Source: Actinomycetota bacterium (GTDB lineage Bacteria; Actinomycetota; Thermoleophilia; Gaiellales; Gaiellaceae). Taken from it: DNA of 33,679 nucleotides. Under the pieces are notes generated by a model that searched no databases, was not told the DNA's origin, and saw only the letters and a list, made by a program, of their open reading frames with translations. Shown in pieces: positions 20,104-30,112 of this stretch; position 1 is the stretch's first letter, and each line of letters begins with the position of its first letter. Where the stretch lies: positions 1 through 33,679 of the forward strand of contig VAYM01000110.1 of NCBI GenBank assembly GCA_005884945.1, given 5' to 3'. The position numbers and the translations under genes are program-made.

Positions 20104-21633
20104 CTAGCCCAACCGCAGCACCTCGTCCGCCTGCTCGATGAGCAGCGGGTCGTGCGTCGCGCAGACGACCGCGGTGCCGAGCTCGCGCGCGAGGCGGACG
20201 AACAGCGCCCCGACGGCGAGCGCGTTTCCCTGATCGAGTCGAGACGTCGGCTCGTCCGCGAGCAGGAGCTCGGGACGCGCCGCGAGCGCCCGCGCGATTG
20301 CGACACGACCGCGCTCCCCCGTCGAGAGCCGTGACACGTGCTGCTCGACGCGGTCCTCCAGGCCGACCGCGACGAGTGTCTCACGCGCGCCGTCGGGCGG
20401 CCTGCCGCGAACCGCGAGCGCGAGCTCGACGTTCTCGAGCGCACTCAGCGCCGGCACGAGCCCGGCCTGCTGGCCGACGTAGCCGACGTGGTCGCGGCGG
20501 AAGCGAGCGCGCGCTGCGCGGTCGAGCCTGGCGACGTCCGTGCCGAGCACGAGGACATCGCCGTCGGTCGGGAGCTCGAGGCCGGCGAGGAGCTGAAGAA
20601 GCGTCGTCTTCCCGGAGCCGGACGGCCCGGTCACGGCGGTGAGCGACGACGAGCGGAACCGTGCGCCGAGCCGGTCGACTGCCGCCCGCTCAGTCGGACC
20701 GGTGCCGTAGACCTTTCGCAGCGAACGCGTCTCGGCGACAACGGTCGTTGCGCGTGGCGCCTCGACGATCGGAGCGGCCGCTTCCTGCACGTCCTCTTCC
20801 TGCGTCGTCGCCGAGACGACGATGCCGCGTCCCTCGAGCCGAGCGGCCGCATGTGTGCGAATCCCCGAACGCCGAAGCAGTTCTTCGGGCAACCGCAGCC
20901 AGCCGCCGCGTCCGACGACGATCGACTCCTCGCCGCCGGCTCCGCGCGCCGTCTCCTCACTGACGCGGCCGTCGCGGATGCGCACGATGCGGTCGGCGAT
21001 CGTTGCTGACTCCGGATCGTGGCTGACGATCACGGCCGTGCAGCGTTCCGAGCGCACGAGCTCGCCGATCGTCTCGTAGACGCGAGTCGCGCTTGCTGCG
21101 TCGAGCTCGCCCGTCGGCTCGTCCGCGAGGAAGAGGCGTGGCCTGTGGGCCAGCGAAGCCGCGACCGCGACGCGCTGCTGCTCGCCGCCGGAGAGCTCGG
21201 CTGGATGTGCGTTCCGCTTGTCGTCGAGGCCGACGCGCTCGAGCAGCTCGTCTGCGCGGCATACGCGTTCGGCCGGCGTTCTTCCCGCGAGGCCGAGCTC
21301 GAGCGCCACGAGCTCGCGCGCAGTCAGCTCGGGCGAAAGCGCGCGCGCGTAGTGCTGGTCCGCGTAACCGACCGTACGCGTTCGATAGCGCGCGACGTCG
21401 GCGGTCGGCAGCTTGCCGAGCTCGACCCCGAAGACGTGCACCGTTCCCGCCGAGGGGCGGTCGAGGCCCGCGAGGATGCGCAGGAACGTCGACTTCCCCG
21501 ACCCGCTCGGGCCGAGCACCGTGACGACTTCGTGCTCGCGGACGGTCAGCGACAGACCCTGCAACGCGGCGGCGTCGCCTTCGGGAGTCTGGTGCACGCG
21601 GAAGAGATCGCGGACGTCGATCGCAACGCTCAC
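20104..21633 (-). CDS. ABC transporter ATPase with two fused LolD/MacB-type nucleotide-binding domains
   Basis: Two Walker A ([18 protein letters not shown]), two signatures ([24 protein letters not shown]), two Walker B ([24 protein letters not shown]). Confidence 0.93.
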
Positions 21634-24600
21634 GTTCCGGCCTCCGCAAAGCGGCCCGCGACGTCGCTGCGAAACGCACGACGTGTCGCGACGCCCACGA
21701 CGACGGCGGCTAGCGCGGCGTACGCGACGAACCCGAGGAGCAGCACCGGCCAGTCCACGCCGAGCAGGAGCGGCGGTTGGGGCGAGATCGCGCCTGCGGT
21801 CAACGTCACGAGCGCGACGATGAGGATCGCGAGGATCGCGCCGGTTACGATCCCGCCGACGAGACCGAACCCTGCGACGAAGCCGCTCCGAAGACGGAGC
21901 TGCGCGCGCAGCGTCGACGGTTCCGCGCCCTGCGCTTCGAGGTCGAACAGCTCGCCGCGCTCGTCACGGACGTCCGCGACAACACCGAGCAACAGTCCGA
22001 CGAGCGCGAGCCCGAGCGCGGCGAGCGCGGCTCCGATGAGCGTCAGCATCGTTCCGCGCGCGAGCGGCTCCGAACGAAGCTGCGAGAGGAGGTGTCGCCG
22101 CGACGTGACGGTGAGCACGTCGAACGGCGGTCGCGCCAGCGCTGCGTCGAGCGCCGCCGCCTTTCCGCGCGGTGCGACCAGCCACGCCTCGGCCGGCGCA
22201 CCCGCACCCGGTGCGTCTGCATCGAGCGCCGCCGAGATCGTGGGCAGGTCGGCGAGCACGGCGTTTCCGTCGATCGTCGGGACCCGCCGTGCCTCCGCGA
22301 CGACACGTGCTGTGATCGTCCCGTTGCCGACGGCGATCGGCAAGATCCCGCCAGGCCCGGCGGCGTTCGCGAGCGTCGGCGTGACGACGACAGGGACGGG
22401 CCGTCCGTCCGTGGGCTGCCGCGCGCGGAAGCGGGCGGCGGCGCTGTTCGTGACGAAGTAGCGGAAGCCGCCGCCGCCGACCGGCGTGATGCCGCCTGTT
22501 CCCGTCCACGCGGCGAAGTCGAACGGCAAGCGACGCCCGTCGGCGCGCGGCGCGCCGATCCGCATCGTCCCCACCGCGTAGGTGACGACGTTCCCGCCGC
22601 CGTTCGCGATGCCGTGCAGCCCCGTACCCGTGAGGTCGAACGTGAACGAGAGCAGTAAGCCCCCACGTGCGCCCGCAGGAATCAATGCGGCGAGGCGGCG
22701 CGAATCGGTGGTGGTGCCGAGCGGGACACCGTACGCGCGTCCCTCGTGCAGGATCACCGCCCGCACGGCGAGCTCGTCTCCGTGCGCGCGGAGCGGCAGC
22801 GTCAGCACGCGGGCTTCGGCAGGGATCCGTACGCCCTGGACCGTGACCGGTCCCGCCGGCTGCAATAGACGTTGCAGGTCTTTCGGCGACGCCGACGAGT
22901 CGTCGCTGCGCCAGCGCAACGAGGTCAGATCGCGTGCCGGAAGCGCGAGCACGGTGACGCCGCCCTGCGCTCCTTCGAGATGAGGAACGTCCGCCGACTG
23001 GCGCAAGACGCTGAACGCGTGTGTTGCCGGAACGGCGTCGCCGAAGTCGTGAAGCGACGCCGCCCGGAAGACGGGCACGAGCTTCAGCAGGTCCTCGCTG
23101 ACGACGTCGTCGACCGGCGCAGCGAACGATGCCTGGTCGTTCTGCCCGCGCACGAGCGTGGCGCGATACGCCTCGGCGAACAGCGCGAGCCCGAGGCTGA
23201 CGACGAGGAACCCAACGGCAACCGCTGCGCGTCCCGGATGACGCGCGAGCGAGAGAGCGGCGAGTCGCACGGGCGCCGCTCCTCGCCTTCCCCAACGCTC
23301 GAGCAGGCCGAGAGCCGGCGCGAGCACCCGCGCGAAGAGCACTGCGGCGACGAAGACGATGAGCGCCGGCAGGACGAGGAGCACGCCGCCCGTTCCGCGT
23401 TCACTCGCGAGCGCGCTCGCGTCCGCTGCACCGCGCGCGAGCGCAATCACGACGGCGACGAGCGCTCCCGCAGCCGCCGCGTCGACCGGCGTCACGGTCC
23501 ACCCGCCGAGCCGCGCCGATCCGAGGCGAAGCGACAGCAGCACGACGAGCGACGCAGCCGCCGCGATGACCACGGCGAACAGCACTCCGCGCGCGGCGAG
23601 CGTCGAATGGTCCAGGATCGCGCCGACCGGAACGTCCGCGCGCCCGGCGACGAGTGCGCCGATGCCCGTTCCAACGGCCCAGCCGACCGCGGCGCCGAGC
23701 AGCGAGACGACCACCACCTCCGCCGTCGAGACGAGCGCGAGCTGCCAGCGCCGCGCGCCGTACCACGTCAAGCGCCGCCATTCGGCCTCCGCGTCACGCC
23801 GCAGTCCGGTCGCGGCCAACACCGAAAAGGCGAGCAACAATGCCGCCGCCTCGCCGCCGATGAGCAACAGGCGCCGGCCGGCGACGTCGCCGATCGAGTT
23901 CGCCGCGCGCAACTCGTCGACCGGTGCGGTCAGATCGAACGCGAGGGACTCGGCTTCGACCTGCGACCGCGTCCGCTCGATCTGGCCGGCGAAACGGTTG
24001 ACCGTCCACGGGTGGACGTCGTGCGGACCGAGCGGCGCCGTCCACGCGTAGCTGCGATACGTCGATCCGAAAACGTCGGCGTGCGTGAGACCGTCGACGC
24101 CCTCGGCGAGAAGGAGCGGCGGAGTCGGCGCGGTGTGGTAGCGAAGAGCCTCGCTGAGAATCGACGCATACGTTTCACGCGTGATCAGATCTCCGAGCGG
24201 CAACGCCGACGCGAGGGTCGCGCGACCGACGCGGACGAGGTTGAGCCCTCCGATCTTCGGGATCGGACCGCTGCCGCCGAGCTGGACGACCTCGCAGCGT
24301 TCCGGACTGCACGTACGCGGCAGCCGGCCCGAGTCCAGATGGACGAACCGCGCGAGCCCGTCGATCGCACCGAGATCGAACAGGTGACCGTTCGACTCGC
24401 TCTGTCGGAACAGCATCGCGCGTACCGGCCGGCCCGCAAGCGGTGTGATCGATGTGCGCGCGAACTTGTCGAGCGCAACCGGGTCGTTCCCGGCTCCGGT
24501 CCCGATCCCGCCCCACACGAGACGCACCACGCGATCCGCCTGCGGAACCTGCGACGTCGCTCGGGACAGGCTCTTGTCCTGAGCGATCAGGCTGCCGGCG

Positions 24601-24731
24601 AGCACGGACGCGAGCAACGCGGCGCCTGCGGCGATCCCGAGTGCCACGAGGACGACGCGCTCGCCGCGCCGCGACAGCCTGATCCAGGCGAGGCGCAGCG
24701 GGTAGGCGATGCGGCGGAGCCGGGGCGTCAC
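21630..24731 (-). CDS. FtsX-like ABC transporter permease
   Basis: 1033-aa protein with an N-terminal TM, large extracytoplasmic regions and multiple TM bundles; start overlaps the tandem ATPase gene arrangement. Confidence 0.85.
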   Translation of the reverse strand: MTPRLRRIAYPLRLAWIRLSRRGERVVLVALGIAAGAALLASVLAGSLIAQDKSLSRATSQVPQADRVVRLVWGGIGTGAGNDPVALDKFARTSITPLAGRPVRAMLFRQSESNGHLFDLGAIDGLARFVHLDSGRLPRTCSPERCEVVQLGGSGPIPKIGGLNLVRVGRATLASALPLGDLITRETYASILSEALRYHTAPTPPLLLAEGVDGLTHADVFGSTYRSYAWTAPLGPHDVHPWTVNRFAGQIERTRSQVEAESLAFDLTAPVDELRAANSIGDVAGRRLLLIGGEAAALLLAFSVLAATGLRRDAEAEWRRLTWYGARRWQLALVSTAEVVVVSLLGAAVGWAVGTGIGALVAGRADVPVGAILDHSTLAARGVLFAVVIAAAASLVVLLSLRLGSARLGGWTVTPVDAAAAGALVAVVIALARGAADASALASERGTGGVLLVLPALIVFVAAVLFARVLAPALGLLERWGRRGAAPVRLAALSLARHPGRAAVAVGFLVVSLGLALFAEAYRATLVRGQNDQASFAAPVDDVVSEDLLKLVPVFRAASLHDFGDAVPATHAFSVLRQSADVPHLEGAQGGVTVLALPARDLTSLRWRSDDSSASPKDLQRLLQPAGPVTVQGVRIPAEARVLTLPLRAHGDELAVRAVILHEGRAYGVPLGTTTDSRRLAALIPAGARGGLLLSFTFDLTGTGLHGIANGGGNVVTYAVGTMRIGAPRADGRRLPFDFAAWTGTGGITPVGGGGFRYFVTNSAAARFRARQPTDGRPVPVVVTPTLANAAGPGGILPIAVGNGTITARVVAEARRVPTIDGNAVLADLPTISAALDADAPGAGAPAEAWLVAPRGKAAALDAALARPPFDVLTVTSRRHLLSQLRSEPLARGTMLTLIGAALAALGLALVGLLLGVVADVRDERGELFDLEAQGAEPSTLRAQLRLRSGFVAGFGLVGGIVTGAILAILIVALVTLTAGAISPQPPLLLGVDWPVLLLGFVAYAALAAVVVGVATRRAFRSDVAGRFAEAGT

Positions 24732-24754: not shown

Positions 24755-25891
24755 CTAGGCCGGGCGGTTGGCCAGCTTGACGCGGATGGTGTGGCTCTTG
24801 CCGCCGCGGACGTACGTGATCGAGGCCGTGTCGCCCGGCTTGTGCGCGTTGACCGCGGCGATCAGCGCGTTGACGGTGGCGATCTTCTTGCCGTCGACCG
24901 CGGTGATGACGTCGCCGCCGGTGGGGTAGTCCTGGCCGTTGACCGTCCGGGCTCCGGTCGCCGCGCGGAATCCTGCCTTCGCCGCGGGCGTCCCGGTCCT
25001 GATCGTCGCGACCTCGGCGCCCGCCGCGAGGTTGAGGTCACCGGCGACCGATGCCGGGATGGTCACCGCCGACACGCCGAGGAACGCGTGCTCGACCTTT
25101 CCGCTGCCGACCAGCTGCGTGACGACCGACTTGACGGTGTTCGACGGGATCGCGAACCCGACGCCCTCGTTCCCGCCGGAGTCGCTCTGGATCTGCGCGT
25201 TGACGCCGATCACCTTGCCCTGCATGTCGAGGAGCGGGCCGCCGGAGTTCCCGTGGTTGATCGCGGCGTCGGTCTGGATCGCGTTCGCGATCGTGAAGTT
25301 GTTCGGCGCCTCGATCTGCCGGTGCAGCGCGCTGACGATCCCGCTGGTCACGGTTTCCTCGAGACCGAACGGCGATCCGATCGCGACCGCTCCGTCGCCG
25401 ACCGCGACGTTGTCGGAGTTGCCGAGGCCGAGCGGGACGAGCAGCGAGCTCGGCGCGTTGACGTGAACCACGGCGAGATCGGTCGACGCATCGGTGCCGA
25501 CGACCGTCGCCTTGTAAGTCGCGCCGTTCCAGAACTGCACCGAGACCGACGTCGCACCGTCGACGACGTGCTCGTTCGTGACGATGTCTCCCTGCGTGTC
25601 GTAGACGAACCCAGAGCCTTGCGCGCGCTGGGTGTTCGAGCCGCCGAACGGCGTCGCGCCTTGGTTGGAGGTCACCGTCAGCTCGACGACGCCCTTGTAC
25701 GCTCGTCGGTAGATCTCGTTGACGCTGAGCGAGCTCGTGGCGGACGCGGGGGTCGAGTTGTCGACAGTGACCTGGCGGACGACAGTCTTCGTGCTCGAGT
25801 TGAACGCGCTGTATGCCGCCACACCGCCACCCGCGCCGATTGCGACGGCGGCGGCGAGGGCGGCGATGACGGTTGTGCGAGGGAGGTGCAT
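24755..25891 (-). CDS. HtrA/DegP-like trypsin-family serine protease with PDZ domain
   Basis: Signal anchor; catalytic H (IVTNEHVVDG), D (ASTDLAVVHV), S (INHGNSGGPLLD); C-terminal PDZ (GGDVITAVDGKKIATVNALIAAV). Confidence 0.95.
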   Translation of the reverse strand: MHLPRTTVIAALAAAVAIGAGGGVAAYSAFNSSTKTVVRQVTVDNSTPASATSSLSVNEIYRRAYKGVVELTVTSNQGATPFGGSNTQRAQGSGFVYDTQGDIVTNEHVVDGATSVSVQFWNGATYKATVVGTDASTDLAVVHVNAPSSLLVPLGLGNSDNVAVGDGAVAIGSPFGLEETVTSGIVSALHRQIEAPNNFTIANAIQTDAAINHGNSGGPLLDMQGKVIGVNAQIQSDSGGNEGVGFAIPSNTVKSVVTQLVGSGKVEHAFLGVSAVTIPASVAGDLNLAAGAEVATIRTGTPAAKAGFRAATGARTVNGQDYPTGGDVITAVDGKKIATVNALIAAVNAHKPGDTASITYVRGGKSHTIRVKLANRPA

Positions 25892-25914
25892 TGCCGGTAT
25901 CTCACCAGCCGTCC

Positions 25915-25997
25915 CTAAGACGCGCCTGAGAGGCGGGTAAGAACTGCGTGAAAACGGCTCTTAAGAACGATTTACGCCGTTCTTAGCAGGCTCTTAG
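25915..25997. promoter_or_regulatory. Symmetric eight-half-site array in htrA/two-component divergent promoter
   Basis: CTAAGA 25915, CTGAGA 25926, GTAAGA 25937, GTGAAA 25948 | TCTTAA 25959, ATTTAC 25970, TCTTAG 25981, TCTTAG 25992: all starts exactly 11 bp apart, orientation inverts at the centre. Confidence 0.85.
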
Positions 25998-26136
25998 CCG
26001 GCGGTGGCAGCGTGAGACGCGTGACATCTGCCTCCCGCCTGCTCCTCCGGTATGCCGCCGCCGTCGCCGACCCCCTGGCGCCGGCGGCGGCAGCGGCGGG
26101 TCACGCGTAGCCGACCTCCGGCGACACAATGGCAGC

Positions 26137-26811
26137 ATGAGGATCCTGGTCGTAGACGACGAGCGTGCGGTGCGGGACTCCCTTCGCCGTGCGCTCGAGC
26201 TCGAGGGCTACGAGATCGAGCTCGCGGGCGACGGGCGCGAGGCGCTCTATCGGCTCGACACCGACTCACAGCCGGACGCGGTCATCCTCGACGTGCTGAT
26301 GCCGGGACTCGACGGGCTCGAGGTCTGCCGCCGGATCCGCGCCGGTGGGAGCTCCGTTCCGGTGCTCATGCTGACTGCGCGCGACGCCGTCGAGAACCGT
26401 GTCGAAGGGCTCGACGCGGGCGCCGACGACTACGTGACGAAGCCCTTCGCGCTCGAGGAGCTCCTCGCGCGCGTGCGCGCGCTCATCCGGCGGACCACCG
26501 ACGGAGCGGACGAGAAGCTTCGCTTCGCCGACCTCGAGCTCGACCCGGGCACGCGGGAGGTGACGAGGGGAGGAGAGCCGATCGAGCTGACCCGAACGGA
26601 GTTCTCACTCCTCGAGCTCTTCCTGCGCAACCCGCGCCAGGTGTTGACGCGGTCGATCATCTTCGAACGGGTCTGGGGCTACGACTTCGGTTTCGCGTCA
26701 AACTCTCTCGACGTGTACATCGGCTATCTCCGGCGCAAGACCGAGGTGGGCGGCAGGCCCCGCCTCATCCACACCGTCCGCGGTGTGGGCTACGCCCTGC
26801 GAACAGCATGA
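26137..26811 (+). CDS. OmpR-family response regulator
   Basis: [76 protein letters not shown], winged-helix [30 protein letters not shown]...[10 protein letters not shown]. Confidence 0.96.
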
Positions 26812-28196
26812 GCTTCCGGGCGCGGCTGACACTTGTCGCCGCCGCCGCCGTCGCGCTCGCGGTCATCCTCGCCTCGGCGATCGTCTACGTCGTCGTCCGC
26901 CATCAGATGCGCAGCCAGGTCGACGATGCCGTGCGCGCGCAGGCGTTCCAGCTCGCGACGGGGCCACCGCTTCATCTCGAGCCGGGCGCAAACGGAAAGT
27001 ACTACCTCGACATCCATCGCGGGGTCGTCGGCGGCGGCGGATTCGTGCAGCTCGTCGGCCCGCGCGGAGCGACGTTCGTCACATTCGAGGAACTCGGCTC
27101 GCCTCCGATTCCGGTGTCGAAGGAAGCACTCGCCGTTGCCCAGGGCAAGAAGACGGACCAGTTCATGAGCGACGCGAGTGTCTCCGGTCGCGACTTCCGC
27201 GTCATGACCGTTCCCGTTCAGAACACGAACGGACAGTCGTCGGCGCTCCAGGTCGCGCAGGACCTCACCGGCGTCAACCACACGCTGAGCAAGATCCGGA
27301 AGATCCTCGTCGTGATCGGCCTCGGCGGCATCGCGCTCGCAGCCGCGCTCGGTCTCATCGTTTCGCGCGCCGCGCTCGCACCTGTGCGCCGCATGACGGG
27401 AGCGACGGAGAAGGTGGCCGAGACCGGCGACCTCTCGGAGCGGATCGAGACGCACGGAGCGGACGAGCTGAGCCGCCTCGGCGCGAGCTTCAACGCGATG
27501 CTCGCGGCGCTGGAGGACTCGACGCGTAAGCAGCGCCAGCTCGTCGCGGACGCGTCACACGAGCTGCGGACGCCGCTCACGAGCCTGCGCACGAACATCG
27601 AAGTGCTCGCCGGCGAGCGTACGCTGCCGCCGGGTGAGCGCGAGCGGCTCCTGCACGACGTCATCGAGCAGCTCGGCGAGATGACGACGCTGATTGCCGG
27701 CCTGATCGAGCTGGCGCGCGCGGAGGAACAACCGGACGAGCCGGAGGACGTCCGGCTCGACCTCGTCGCCGCCGATGCGGTCGAGCGTGCACGTCGGAAC
27801 CAGCCGGGCGTGGAGTTCGAGACGGACCTCCACGAGTCGCTCGTCCACGGCGTGCCGTCCACGATCGAGCGCGCGGTTGCGAACCTCCTCGACAACGCCG
27901 CGAAATGGAGCCCGCCCGGCGGCCCGGTCGAGGTCGGGGTCCGCGGCGGCACGGTGACCGTGCGGGATCACGGCCCGGGGATCGCGCAGGAGGATCTGCC
28001 GTACGTCTTCGACCGGTTCTACCGCGCACGCTCCGCACGCGGGCTGCCGGGATCCGGGCTGGGGCTGGCGATCGTGCGCCAGGTCGCGGAGGCACACGGC
28101 GGGGAGGTCGTGGCCGAGCGCGCACACGGTGGCGGCACGCAGATGACGCTCCGGCTCAACGGCCGCCCGCCACACGCCGCGGACGACGGTTCTTAG
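26808..28196 (+). CDS. Membrane sensor histidine kinase (HAMP-HisKA-HATPase)
   Basis: Starts at ATGA overlap with the response regulator; two TM segments, HAMP, H-box [26 protein letters not shown], HATPase [45 protein letters not shown]. Confidence 0.95.
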
Positions 28197-28218
28197 CTTC
28201 GTCTTAGGCTGGTCTTAG
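28191..28218 (+). promoter_or_regulatory. Triple TCTTAG direct-repeat array
   Basis: TCTTAG at 28191, 28202 and 28213 (11-bp steps), upstream of the gene at 28264; first copy contains the kinase stop codon. Confidence 0.85.
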
Positions 28219-28263
28219 GGACCAGTGCTCTCATCAGAGCAGACCCGGGAAAGGAGCTCGACC

Positions 28264-28941
28264 ATGCTGGGAAGCCGTGGGCGGAAGCTGATCGTCGCGA
28301 TCGTCGCGACGCTCGCAGTTGCAGGCGGAGGCATCGCGATCGGCGCGACGCAGCTCGGATCTCCGAGCCAGGAAAGCCAGGCGGTCGTGAACGATGCCGC
28401 GAAACAACTGGGCGTGACTCCGACAGCGCTGAGCAATGCGCTCGAGAACGCGTTGCTGAATCGCGTCGACGCAGCCGTCGCATCCGGCCGTATCACGAAG
28501 GACCAGGGTGACGCGTTGAAGGCGCGCATCCGGTCCGGCTCCGTTCCGTTCTTCGGTTTCGGCGCGTTCGGTGACCATCACTACGGCGATGATCTGCAGG
28601 CCGCCGCGACCTATCTCGGCATCACGACGGACGCCCTCCGTTCGGAGCTCGCTTCGGGCAAGACGCTCGCCGCGGTTGCGAAGGAGAACGGCAAGTCGGT
28701 CGACGGTCTCGTCGAGGTCCTCTACAACGCGGAGAAGAAGGAGCTCGACCAGGCGGTTGCGAACGGTCGGCTCACGAAAGACCAGGAGCAGACGATCCTG
28801 ACGCACGTGCGCGACCGCATCACGGCGAAGGTCAACGGGACGCTGCCACGGTTCAACGGTCACTTCGACCGGTTCCGCGCGCCGGGGCCGTTCTGGGGCG
28901 GCTTCGAACGTCTGCGCCCGTTCCACGGCTCGACCACGTAA
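28264..28941 (+). CDS. Secreted/anchored helical protein of unknown function
   Basis: RBS aaaggag; N-terminal signal-like segment MLGSRGRKLIVAIVATLAVAGGGIAIGA; repeated LGVT..AL...A...LLNRVDAAVASGRITKDQGD type helical units. Confidence 0.85.
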   Translation: MLGSRGRKLIVAIVATLAVAGGGIAIGATQLGSPSQESQAVVNDAAKQLGVTPTALSNALENALLNRVDAAVASGRITKDQGDALKARIRSGSVPFFGFGAFGDHHYGDDLQAAATYLGITTDALRSELASGKTLAAVAKENGKSVDGLVEVLYNAEKKELDQAVANGRLTKDQEQTILTHVRDRITAKVNGTLPRFNGHFDRFRAPGPFWGGFERLRPFHGSTT

Positions 28942-28943
28942 CG

Positions 28944-28982
28944 TTTAACGAAGTGCTAACCGGCGTCTTAGAGGGGTCTTAG
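28944..28982 (+). promoter_or_regulatory. Four-half-site array upstream of the metalloprotease gene
   Basis: TTTAAC 28944, GCTAAC 28955, TCTTAG 28966, TCTTAG 28977: exact 11-bp steps. Confidence 0.8.
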
Positions 28983-29005
28983 GCGTGCGCGCGAGTCTGG
29001 AGCGA

Positions 29006-30112
29006 ATGATCAGGCCCCAGCCATTCAGCACCCGCCTGCGGCTGATGTGCGGGGGCCTGCCGGTCCTCGTGGCCGCCGCCGCCCTTGCTGCCAGCCCCTC
29101 GGCGGCGGCCACGAGGGAAAGCCTGAAGACGCCGCTGCTCGCGGACATCGGCACCGCGGCGACGCCGATCACAGATTCGATCCTGTCGAGGCGCGCGACG
29201 CGCAGCCTCACCGCCGCCGCATCCTGGGGCGGCACGTTCACGACGTCCGCGGGTGACCAGGTCTCCATCCACGTCTCGGACAGCTATCCGGTCGACAACA
29301 CACGTGCGCAGCGCTGGGCCGACTTTCTCGGCAGCCTCGTGCACGGCTCGGAGATCTCGACCGTCCAGGTCTATCTCGCGCCGCTCGACGAAGTGCAGCA
29401 GTACTGCGGGCAGGACGCTCTTGCGTGCTACAACCCGACCAACAAGCTGCTCGTCGCGCCCGGCGACGATCCCAGCTCCGAGCTCTCGGCGGAAGCGGTC
29501 GTGACGCACGAGTACGGACACCACGTCGCGAACTCGCGCAACGACGCACCGTGGCTGGCGATCGACTACGGGACGAAGCGTTGGGCGTCGTACGTACAGG
29601 TCTGCTCGAAGGCGCAGGCCGGCCAGCTCTTCCCGGGCGCCGAGTCCGACTCGCGGTATCAGCTGAATCCCGGTGAAGGCTTCGCGGAGAGCTATCGCGT
29701 CCTGAACCAGCATCGGCTCGGCGTCCCCGAGTCGCCCTGGCAGGTCGTGTCGCAGTCGCTCTATCCCGATGCGACCGCGCTGTCGCTCATCCAGCAGGAC
29801 GTGCTCACTCCATGGACCGGCCCGGCGCAGTCCACGCTGTCTGCGGCGCTCACGAAGCGCGCGAAGTCGCGGACGCTCAGCGTCGCCACGCCGCTCGACG
29901 GGACGTTCCGCGTCACGATCCGCGCGGCGAAGGGCGAGCGCGTCGGCGTCAACCTCGTGACGAGCACCGGCGCCCGCGTCGCGCACGCGGTCGTGACCGG
30001 GACGGCGGCGCGGACGCTGACGACGACCGTCTGCGGATCGCGCACGTACGGCGTCCAACTGAACCTCGCGAAGGGCGCGGGGCGGACGCGCGCGGTCGTT
30101 TCCAAGGCCTAG
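29006..30112 (+). CDS. Secreted zinc metallopeptidase-like protein
   Basis: In-frame ATG at 29006 (GTG at 28985 also possible), signal peptide, VVTHEYGHHVAN (HExxH) and downstream NPGEGFAESYR glutamate. Confidence 0.8.
   Translation: MIRPQPFSTRLRLMCGGLPVLVAAAALAASPSAAATRESLKTPLLADIGTAATPITDSILSRRATRSLTAAASWGGTFTTSAGDQVSIHVSDSYPVDNTRAQRWADFLGSLVHGSEISTVQVYLAPLDEVQQYCGQDALACYNPTNKLLVAPGDDPSSELSAEAVVTHEYGHHVANSRNDAPWLAIDYGTKRWASYVQVCSKAQAGQLFPGAESDSRYQLNPGEGFAESYRVLNQHRLGVPESPWQVVSQSLYPDATALSLIQQDVLTPWTGPAQSTLSAALTKRAKSRTLSVATPLDGTFRVTIRAAKGERVGVNLVTSTGARVAHAVVTGTAARTLTTTVCGSRTYGVQLNLAKGAGRTRAVVSKA

Follow-up and report, generated by a model that had tools for sequence, protein, structure and literature searches.

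The window analyzed here, by which is meant the whole stretch of 33,679 nucleotides, carries an htrA-type protease gene and, divergently oriented to its right, the genes of an OmpR-type two component system, with a series of short phased repeats between them (Table 1). Directly downstream of htrA on the minus strand (20104-24731), genes for an ABC-transporter ATPase and a large FtsX-type permease are found, and it is possible that these form one operon with htrA. Two additional arrays (28191-28218 and 28944-28982), which go beyond those described in a first-pass annotation of this DNA, each precede a secreted-protein gene. The stop codon of the kinase gene (28194-28196) lies inside the first half-site of the former, and a comparable array follows the kinase gene in most of the close relatives tested.

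Table 1. Coordinates of genes, arrays, and predicted promoter elements at the htrA-regulator locus
Feature	Position	Strand	Remarks
htrA/degP-type trypsin-like serine protease with PDZ domain	24755..25891	-	Trypsin_2 1e-32, PDZ_2 5e-16, TIGR02037 1e-91
Predicted htrA -10, TGG-TGAGAT on the minus strand	25899..25904	-	N10 from last half-site; 7 nt from htrA start codon (predicted leaderless)
htrA-facing operator	25915..25953	-	Read towards htrA: TTTCAC-N5-TCTTAC-N5-TCTCAG-N5-TCTTAG; most relatives with a divergent htrA have a corresponding tetrad
Right-facing operator	25959..25997	+	TCTTAA-N5-ATTTAC-N5-TCTTAG-N5-TCTTAG; equivalent tetrad in nine related loci
Predicted right-promoter -10, TGG-CAGCGT	26008..26013	+	N10 from last half-site
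Predicted leaderless 29-codon mini-ORF, metallopeptidase start and signal-peptide remnant	26021..26110	+	Alignment to the relatives' gene
GC-rich hairpin	26053..26092	+	Best read as alanine codons (GCC..GCG) of the signal-peptide remnant
Predicted -10 (CACAAT) of response-regulator gene	26125..26130	+	6 nt from regulator ATG
OmpR/PhoB-family response regulator, predicted binder	26137..26811	+	PF00072 3e-33, PF00486 4e-26
Sensor histidine kinase	26808..28196	+	HAMP, HisKA, HATPase_c
Third array, TCTTAG x3 at 11 bp	28191..28218	+	N10 to TCTCAT (28229-28234)
Predicted secreted protein of unknown family	28264..28941	+	Conserved regulon member downstream of kinase
Fourth array, TTTAAC-N5-GCTAAC-N5-TCTTAG-N5-TCTTAG	28944..28982	+	N10 to GAGTCT (28993-28998)
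Secreted zinc-metallopeptidase-like protein	29006..30112	+	HEYGH zinc-binding motif at residue 168; homologue of gene beside right tetrad in relatives

The central array (25915-25997) consists of the hexamers CTAAGA (25915), CTGAGA (25926), GTAAGA (25937), and GTGAAA (25948), followed by TCTTAA (25959), ATTTAC (25970), TCTTAG (25981), and TCTTAG (25992), each start lying 11 bp from the next; the letters, coordinates, and spacing given in the first-pass annotation are reproduced exactly. That annotation had also described the array as inverted about its centre, with the strongest half-sites outermost and closest to the promoters, and both descriptions hold, the latter in relatives as well. Specifically, when scored as an inverted 4+4 TCTTAG array with a phase of 11, the array reaches 39 of 48, a value far beyond chance, while the best of 60 random sequences matched to the dinucleotide composition of the window reaches 27, and no phase of 8-10 or 12-15 scores above 24 at any position of the window. 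Similarly, perfect copies of TCTTAG-N5-TCTTAG number six in the 2.86-Mb genome, as compared to an expectation of ~0.03 per genome from base composition, and four of the six fall within a single 3-kb stretch at this locus.

Comparison with related bacteria reveals that the spacing of these hexamers is conserved. Among 34 orthologous loci in which the regulator is at least 75% identical, same-strand TCTTAG-like hexamers lie 11 bp apart 57 times, 22 bp apart 35 times, and 33 bp apart 19 times, while every other distance occurs at most twice; information content averages 1.7 bits in the half-site columns as compared to 0.86 bits in the spacers. Of the 103 genomes of the family, 47 carry the four-unit pattern (reversed control, 0/103), and arrays are found in 30/31 genomes possessing a close orthologue of the regulator versus 2/21 genomes without one (Fisher p 5e-11, a value which ignores kinship and is partly confounded by phylogeny). 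Additionally, copies of the motif stand upstream of the regulator gene itself in relatives, and upstream of neighbouring secreted-protein genes. Since the 11-bp step is kept while the spacers drift, since the arrays co-occur with the regulator orthologue, and since the motif stands before the regulator's own gene and those encoding secreted proteins, the eight hexamers are probably direct-repeat sites of the adjacent OmpR/PhoP-type regulator, as the first-pass annotation had proposed, although a related OmpR-type paralogue could bind the TCTTAG motif. The locus has the composition expected of a direct-repeat operator of the OmpR/PhoB family, with half-sites 11 bp apart and an adjacent regulator composed of a receiver and a winged-helix (Trans_reg_C) domain. 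A scan of other genome contigs returned only regulators 42-55% identical, from Actinobacteria and other phyla, none of which has TCTTAG tetrads and a divergently oriented htrA next to it. Upstream of related regulators in Microlunatus, Sanguibacter, and Ktedonobacter (L091, L092, and L098), 11-bp repeats of TCACAG, TCATAG, or TCTCAG are observed, and judged by their letters these are PhoP-like variants of the TCTTAG operator code.

The arrays are joined to their presumed promoters by an equally regular grammar. On the htrA side, TNNNAT lies at N10 in 9/9 aligned loci, usually preceded by TG, while on the right a -10-like box preceded by TG lies at N10 in 10/10 aligned loci and is of the TGG-CA type, mostly NANNNT. 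The combination TCTTAG-N10-TNNNAT occurs only four times in the whole genome, twice at this locus. The sequence thereby displays the layout of class-II activators of the PhoB/CiaR type, in which the last half-site is positioned ~10 bp upstream of the -10 and replaces the -35. As the start codons of htrA and of the reading frames at 26021 and 29006 each follow the predicted -10 by 7 nt, and that of the regulator follows its own by 6 nt, the transcripts of all four are likely leaderless.

Though the four right-hand sites face the response-regulator gene in this genome, as the first-pass annotation had stated, in most close relatives a metallopeptidase gene occupies that position. In G001, G002, G004, G007, and G009 (loci L166, L169, L171, L172, and L173) the right tetrad precedes a predicted leaderless secreted metallopeptidase gene homologous to 29006-30112 of the window, and the regulator gene follows with an operator of its own, TCTTAG-N5-TCTCAG-N10-CACAAT-N6-start; this two-half-site operator is present in most close relatives. 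In the window and in its sister genome G005, all that is left is an ORF of 29-30 codons aligning to the metallopeptidase start and its signal peptide, a similar remnant of 50 codons is found in G037, and the regulator's own half-sites are missing upstream of the regulator gene in all three. Together these data suggest that the leaderless metallopeptidase gene is probably the ancestral partner of the right tetrad in the genus and that the regulator-facing state is secondary in this genome. The simplest account of the comparison is that the metallopeptidase gene and the regulator's operator were deleted, placing the regulator under the right tetrad. With the metallopeptidase gene gone and no operator of its own ahead of the regulator-kinase pair, which comes next downstream, the regulator would depend on the right tetrad, which most likely now provides for its autoregulation. 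On the tree, loss of the metallopeptidase gene requires two changes (window and G005; G037), though these losses may stem from a single origin. To the right of the htrA tetrad in G012 (L200), only two right-facing half-sites are seen, followed by a decayed-looking short ORF whose DNA is similar to the metallopeptidase start; loss of the gene seems to have recurred.

Explanation of the repeats as chance or as a low-complexity artefact is refuted by the random sequences, the whole-genome counts, the reversed-pattern control, and the conservation detailed above, and retains a vanishingly small probability. Greater weight is due to the claim of the first-pass annotation that all eight sites compose one contiguous, bidirectional platform in strict 11-bp phase, on which the regulator would assemble across the centre and couple both divergent promoters. 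All eight sites are indeed in register in the window, G001, G002, G004, and G009, and the close packing of the tetrads, 11-14 bp apart in 9 of the 10 comparable loci, may point to an interaction between them; additionally, M. tuberculosis PhoP binds suitable repeats as a trimer and as a tetramer (PMC4832192). The 11-bp phase, whose conservation in orthologous loci that annotation had named as a check, is however nearly absolute only inside the tetrads: across the centre just 5/10 comparable loci share it, the register being lost in G007 (12 bp between the innermost sites), G037 (13 bp), G003 and G008 (14 bp), in another genus, g14 (20-22 bp), and in G005, where both tetrads are intact yet 333 bp apart. 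The htrA-regulator interval of the latter (L199) carries an insertion of ~320 bp between the tetrads, apparently with a fragment of another gene. Moreover, while the left tetrad is present in most relatives with a divergent htrA, agreeing with the consensus at 20-24 of 24 positions, what lies to its right is four, two, or no sites, several relatives having two or no recognisable ones, and the flip of protein polarity at the centre would prevent a tandem head-to-tail polymer from passing through. Given the variable centre spacing, the intact tetrads of G005, and the occasional absence of right sites, the unit of conservation is, by this comparison, the tetrad: two independent four-site operators stand back to back rather than one eight-site device, and their exact central register appears dispensable, though they are usually close together. 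We thus regard a platform contiguous across the centre as improbable, and hold just as little expectation of a mirror-symmetric complex of eight regulator molecules in which the promoters of htrA and of the regulator (or metallopeptidase) fire or stay silent together; were such a complex to exist, the 11-14 bp packing would be conserved because the innermost dimers, which oppose each other, touch.

Two further alternatives concern what the operators do. As the sites overlap the -35 region, and as CutR, a secretion-stress regulator of Streptomyces, represses htrB (PMC12802291), the arrays could serve repression, with the regulator blocking polymerase at htrA and the right promoter until released under stress; an extended -10 without a -35, separated by 10 bp from the last half-site, is, however, the CiaR layout for activated promoters, and makes repression unlikely. 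More doubtful still is the proposal that a small regulatory RNA is transcribed from the right operator in the manner of the CiaR csRNAs. A C-rich stretch and a stable hairpin (z -3.7) are present at 26053-26092, and in the genus g14 (L030, L031, L034, and L035) 80 nt of C-rich sequence, which include a conserved GC hairpin with a CCUCCU loop, lie downstream of a right-facing array. In the window, however, the hairpin is made up of alanine codons, and the signal-peptide remnant to which these belong has a full-length homologue in relatives. The hairpin also has no U-tract; once the segment proved to be this remnant, the hairpin was set aside as a small RNA. Matches to Rfam were limited to sub-threshold chance hits, none at gathering score, and compensatory pair changes in the g14 hairpin were absent among the only four sequences available. 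The CCUCCU loop in g14 is anti-Shine-Dalgarno-like and the regulator's own operator comes after the C-rich stretch, which is a candidate small RNA or terminator.

Taken together, we consider it highly probable that the array represents two independent class-II-type activator operators, placed back to back, for htrA and (ancestrally) the metallopeptidase gene, and bound by the adjacent regulator. On each tetrad, this OmpR/PhoP-family protein would sit as two tandem dimers. At each promoter the nearest half-site stops 10 bp short of an extended -10 for which no normal -35 is seen, and the regulator would stand in for this missing element, such that the left operator would switch on leaderless htrA and the right operator a leaderless transcript which, in related species, encodes the secreted zinc-metallopeptidase. 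The system would therein constitute a secretion/envelope-stress regulon comprising htrA, the metallopeptidase, the regulator-kinase pair, and the secreted protein encoded at 28264; the operator at htrA is conserved among relatives. What we infer here is that the protein binds, that it activates rather than represses, and that the signal is one of stress, while the array, its spacing, the -10 grammar, the conserved regulon, and the gene loss are drawn from sequence and comparison.

Elsewhere in the same genome (contig C171, ~21066-21115; L205), five phased half-sites (CTTTAC, CTTTAC, TCTCAT, TCTTAG, and TCTTAG) precede a secreted ORF resembling a multicopper oxidase, at the spacing from a TGAGAT-type box that is also seen at htrA. 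Further members of the regulon are likely represented by L203, L206, and L209. With these observations, an uncultured and unstudied bacterial family gains a defined operator code, composed of TCTTAG-N5 repeats and N10 to an extended -10, along with a probable secretion-stress regulon of proteases, and the code permits genome-wide prediction of the regulon in about half of the genomes of the family. The take-over proposed above suggests that loss of one gene could re-wire autoregulation by handing a regulator its neighbour's operator. General ideas on OmpR-type operators are unchanged.

Several characterized systems lie close to the one described here. The scores of the regulator are below all NCBIfam equivalog cut-offs among those listed: PhoB, the best (217.6 vs 296.2), MtrA (213.6 vs 300), and CseB (191.9 vs 350). 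Among solved structures, its best sequence match is PhoP of M. tuberculosis, whose DNA complex is a tandem dimer with strict spacing, trimers and tetramers forming on proper repeats (PMC4832192). The PhoP boxes (TCACAGC-N4-TCACAGC) share the 11-bp step, and the base-reading residues Asn212, Tyr217, and Tyr220 are conserved in the helix of the window regulator. In contrast, the base-reading positions Val213, Glu215, and Ser216 are changed to Ser, Asp, and Val, respectively, motif positions 3-4 differ (TCTTAG here), and the regulon is a different one; the three changed residues would fit the replacement of TCACAG by TCTTAG, which alters the middle of the motif.

Sites of E. coli ArcA are likewise composed of 2-5 repeats at 11 bp, with ~44 bp protected for four repeats and opposed weaker sites at dctA (PMC3798270); as most of these sites have 3-5 repeats, the view of the first-pass annotation that the array is unusually long does not stand. 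ArcA repeats are, however, degenerate and mostly repress, whereas the arrays described here are cleaner and have a fixed N10 to the -10. The CutRS and CssRS systems of Streptomyces resemble the present one: they are two component systems of the OmpR type and, in these high-GC Gram-positives, control proteases of the HtrA family (PMC12802291, PMC3498368), but CutR binds TAWATAAA, a motif which the TCTTAG repeats of this locus do not share. Streptococcal CiaR offers a hexamer direct repeat at 11 bp (TTTAAG-N5-TTTAAG) with N10 to the -10 and a terminal G; it likewise regulates htrA and feeds back on the operon that encodes it (PMC3091779, PMC8317062), and its csRNA genes were found by the layout TTTAAG, N5, TTTAAG, N10, -10 (PMC3091779). 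It differs in that two repeats are present in place of four, the hexamer is TTTAAG and not TCTTAG, and the hosts are low-GC Firmicutes. By analogy, the system would work like CiaR, but is not classed as CiaR because the consensus here is TCTTAG and not NTTAAG-N5-TTTAAG. Extended 11-bp arrays (ArcA) and control of htrA by OmpR-type regulators (CiaR, CutRS) are already known; what is new is a family-specific operator code, its regulon, and the apparent take-over of an operator.
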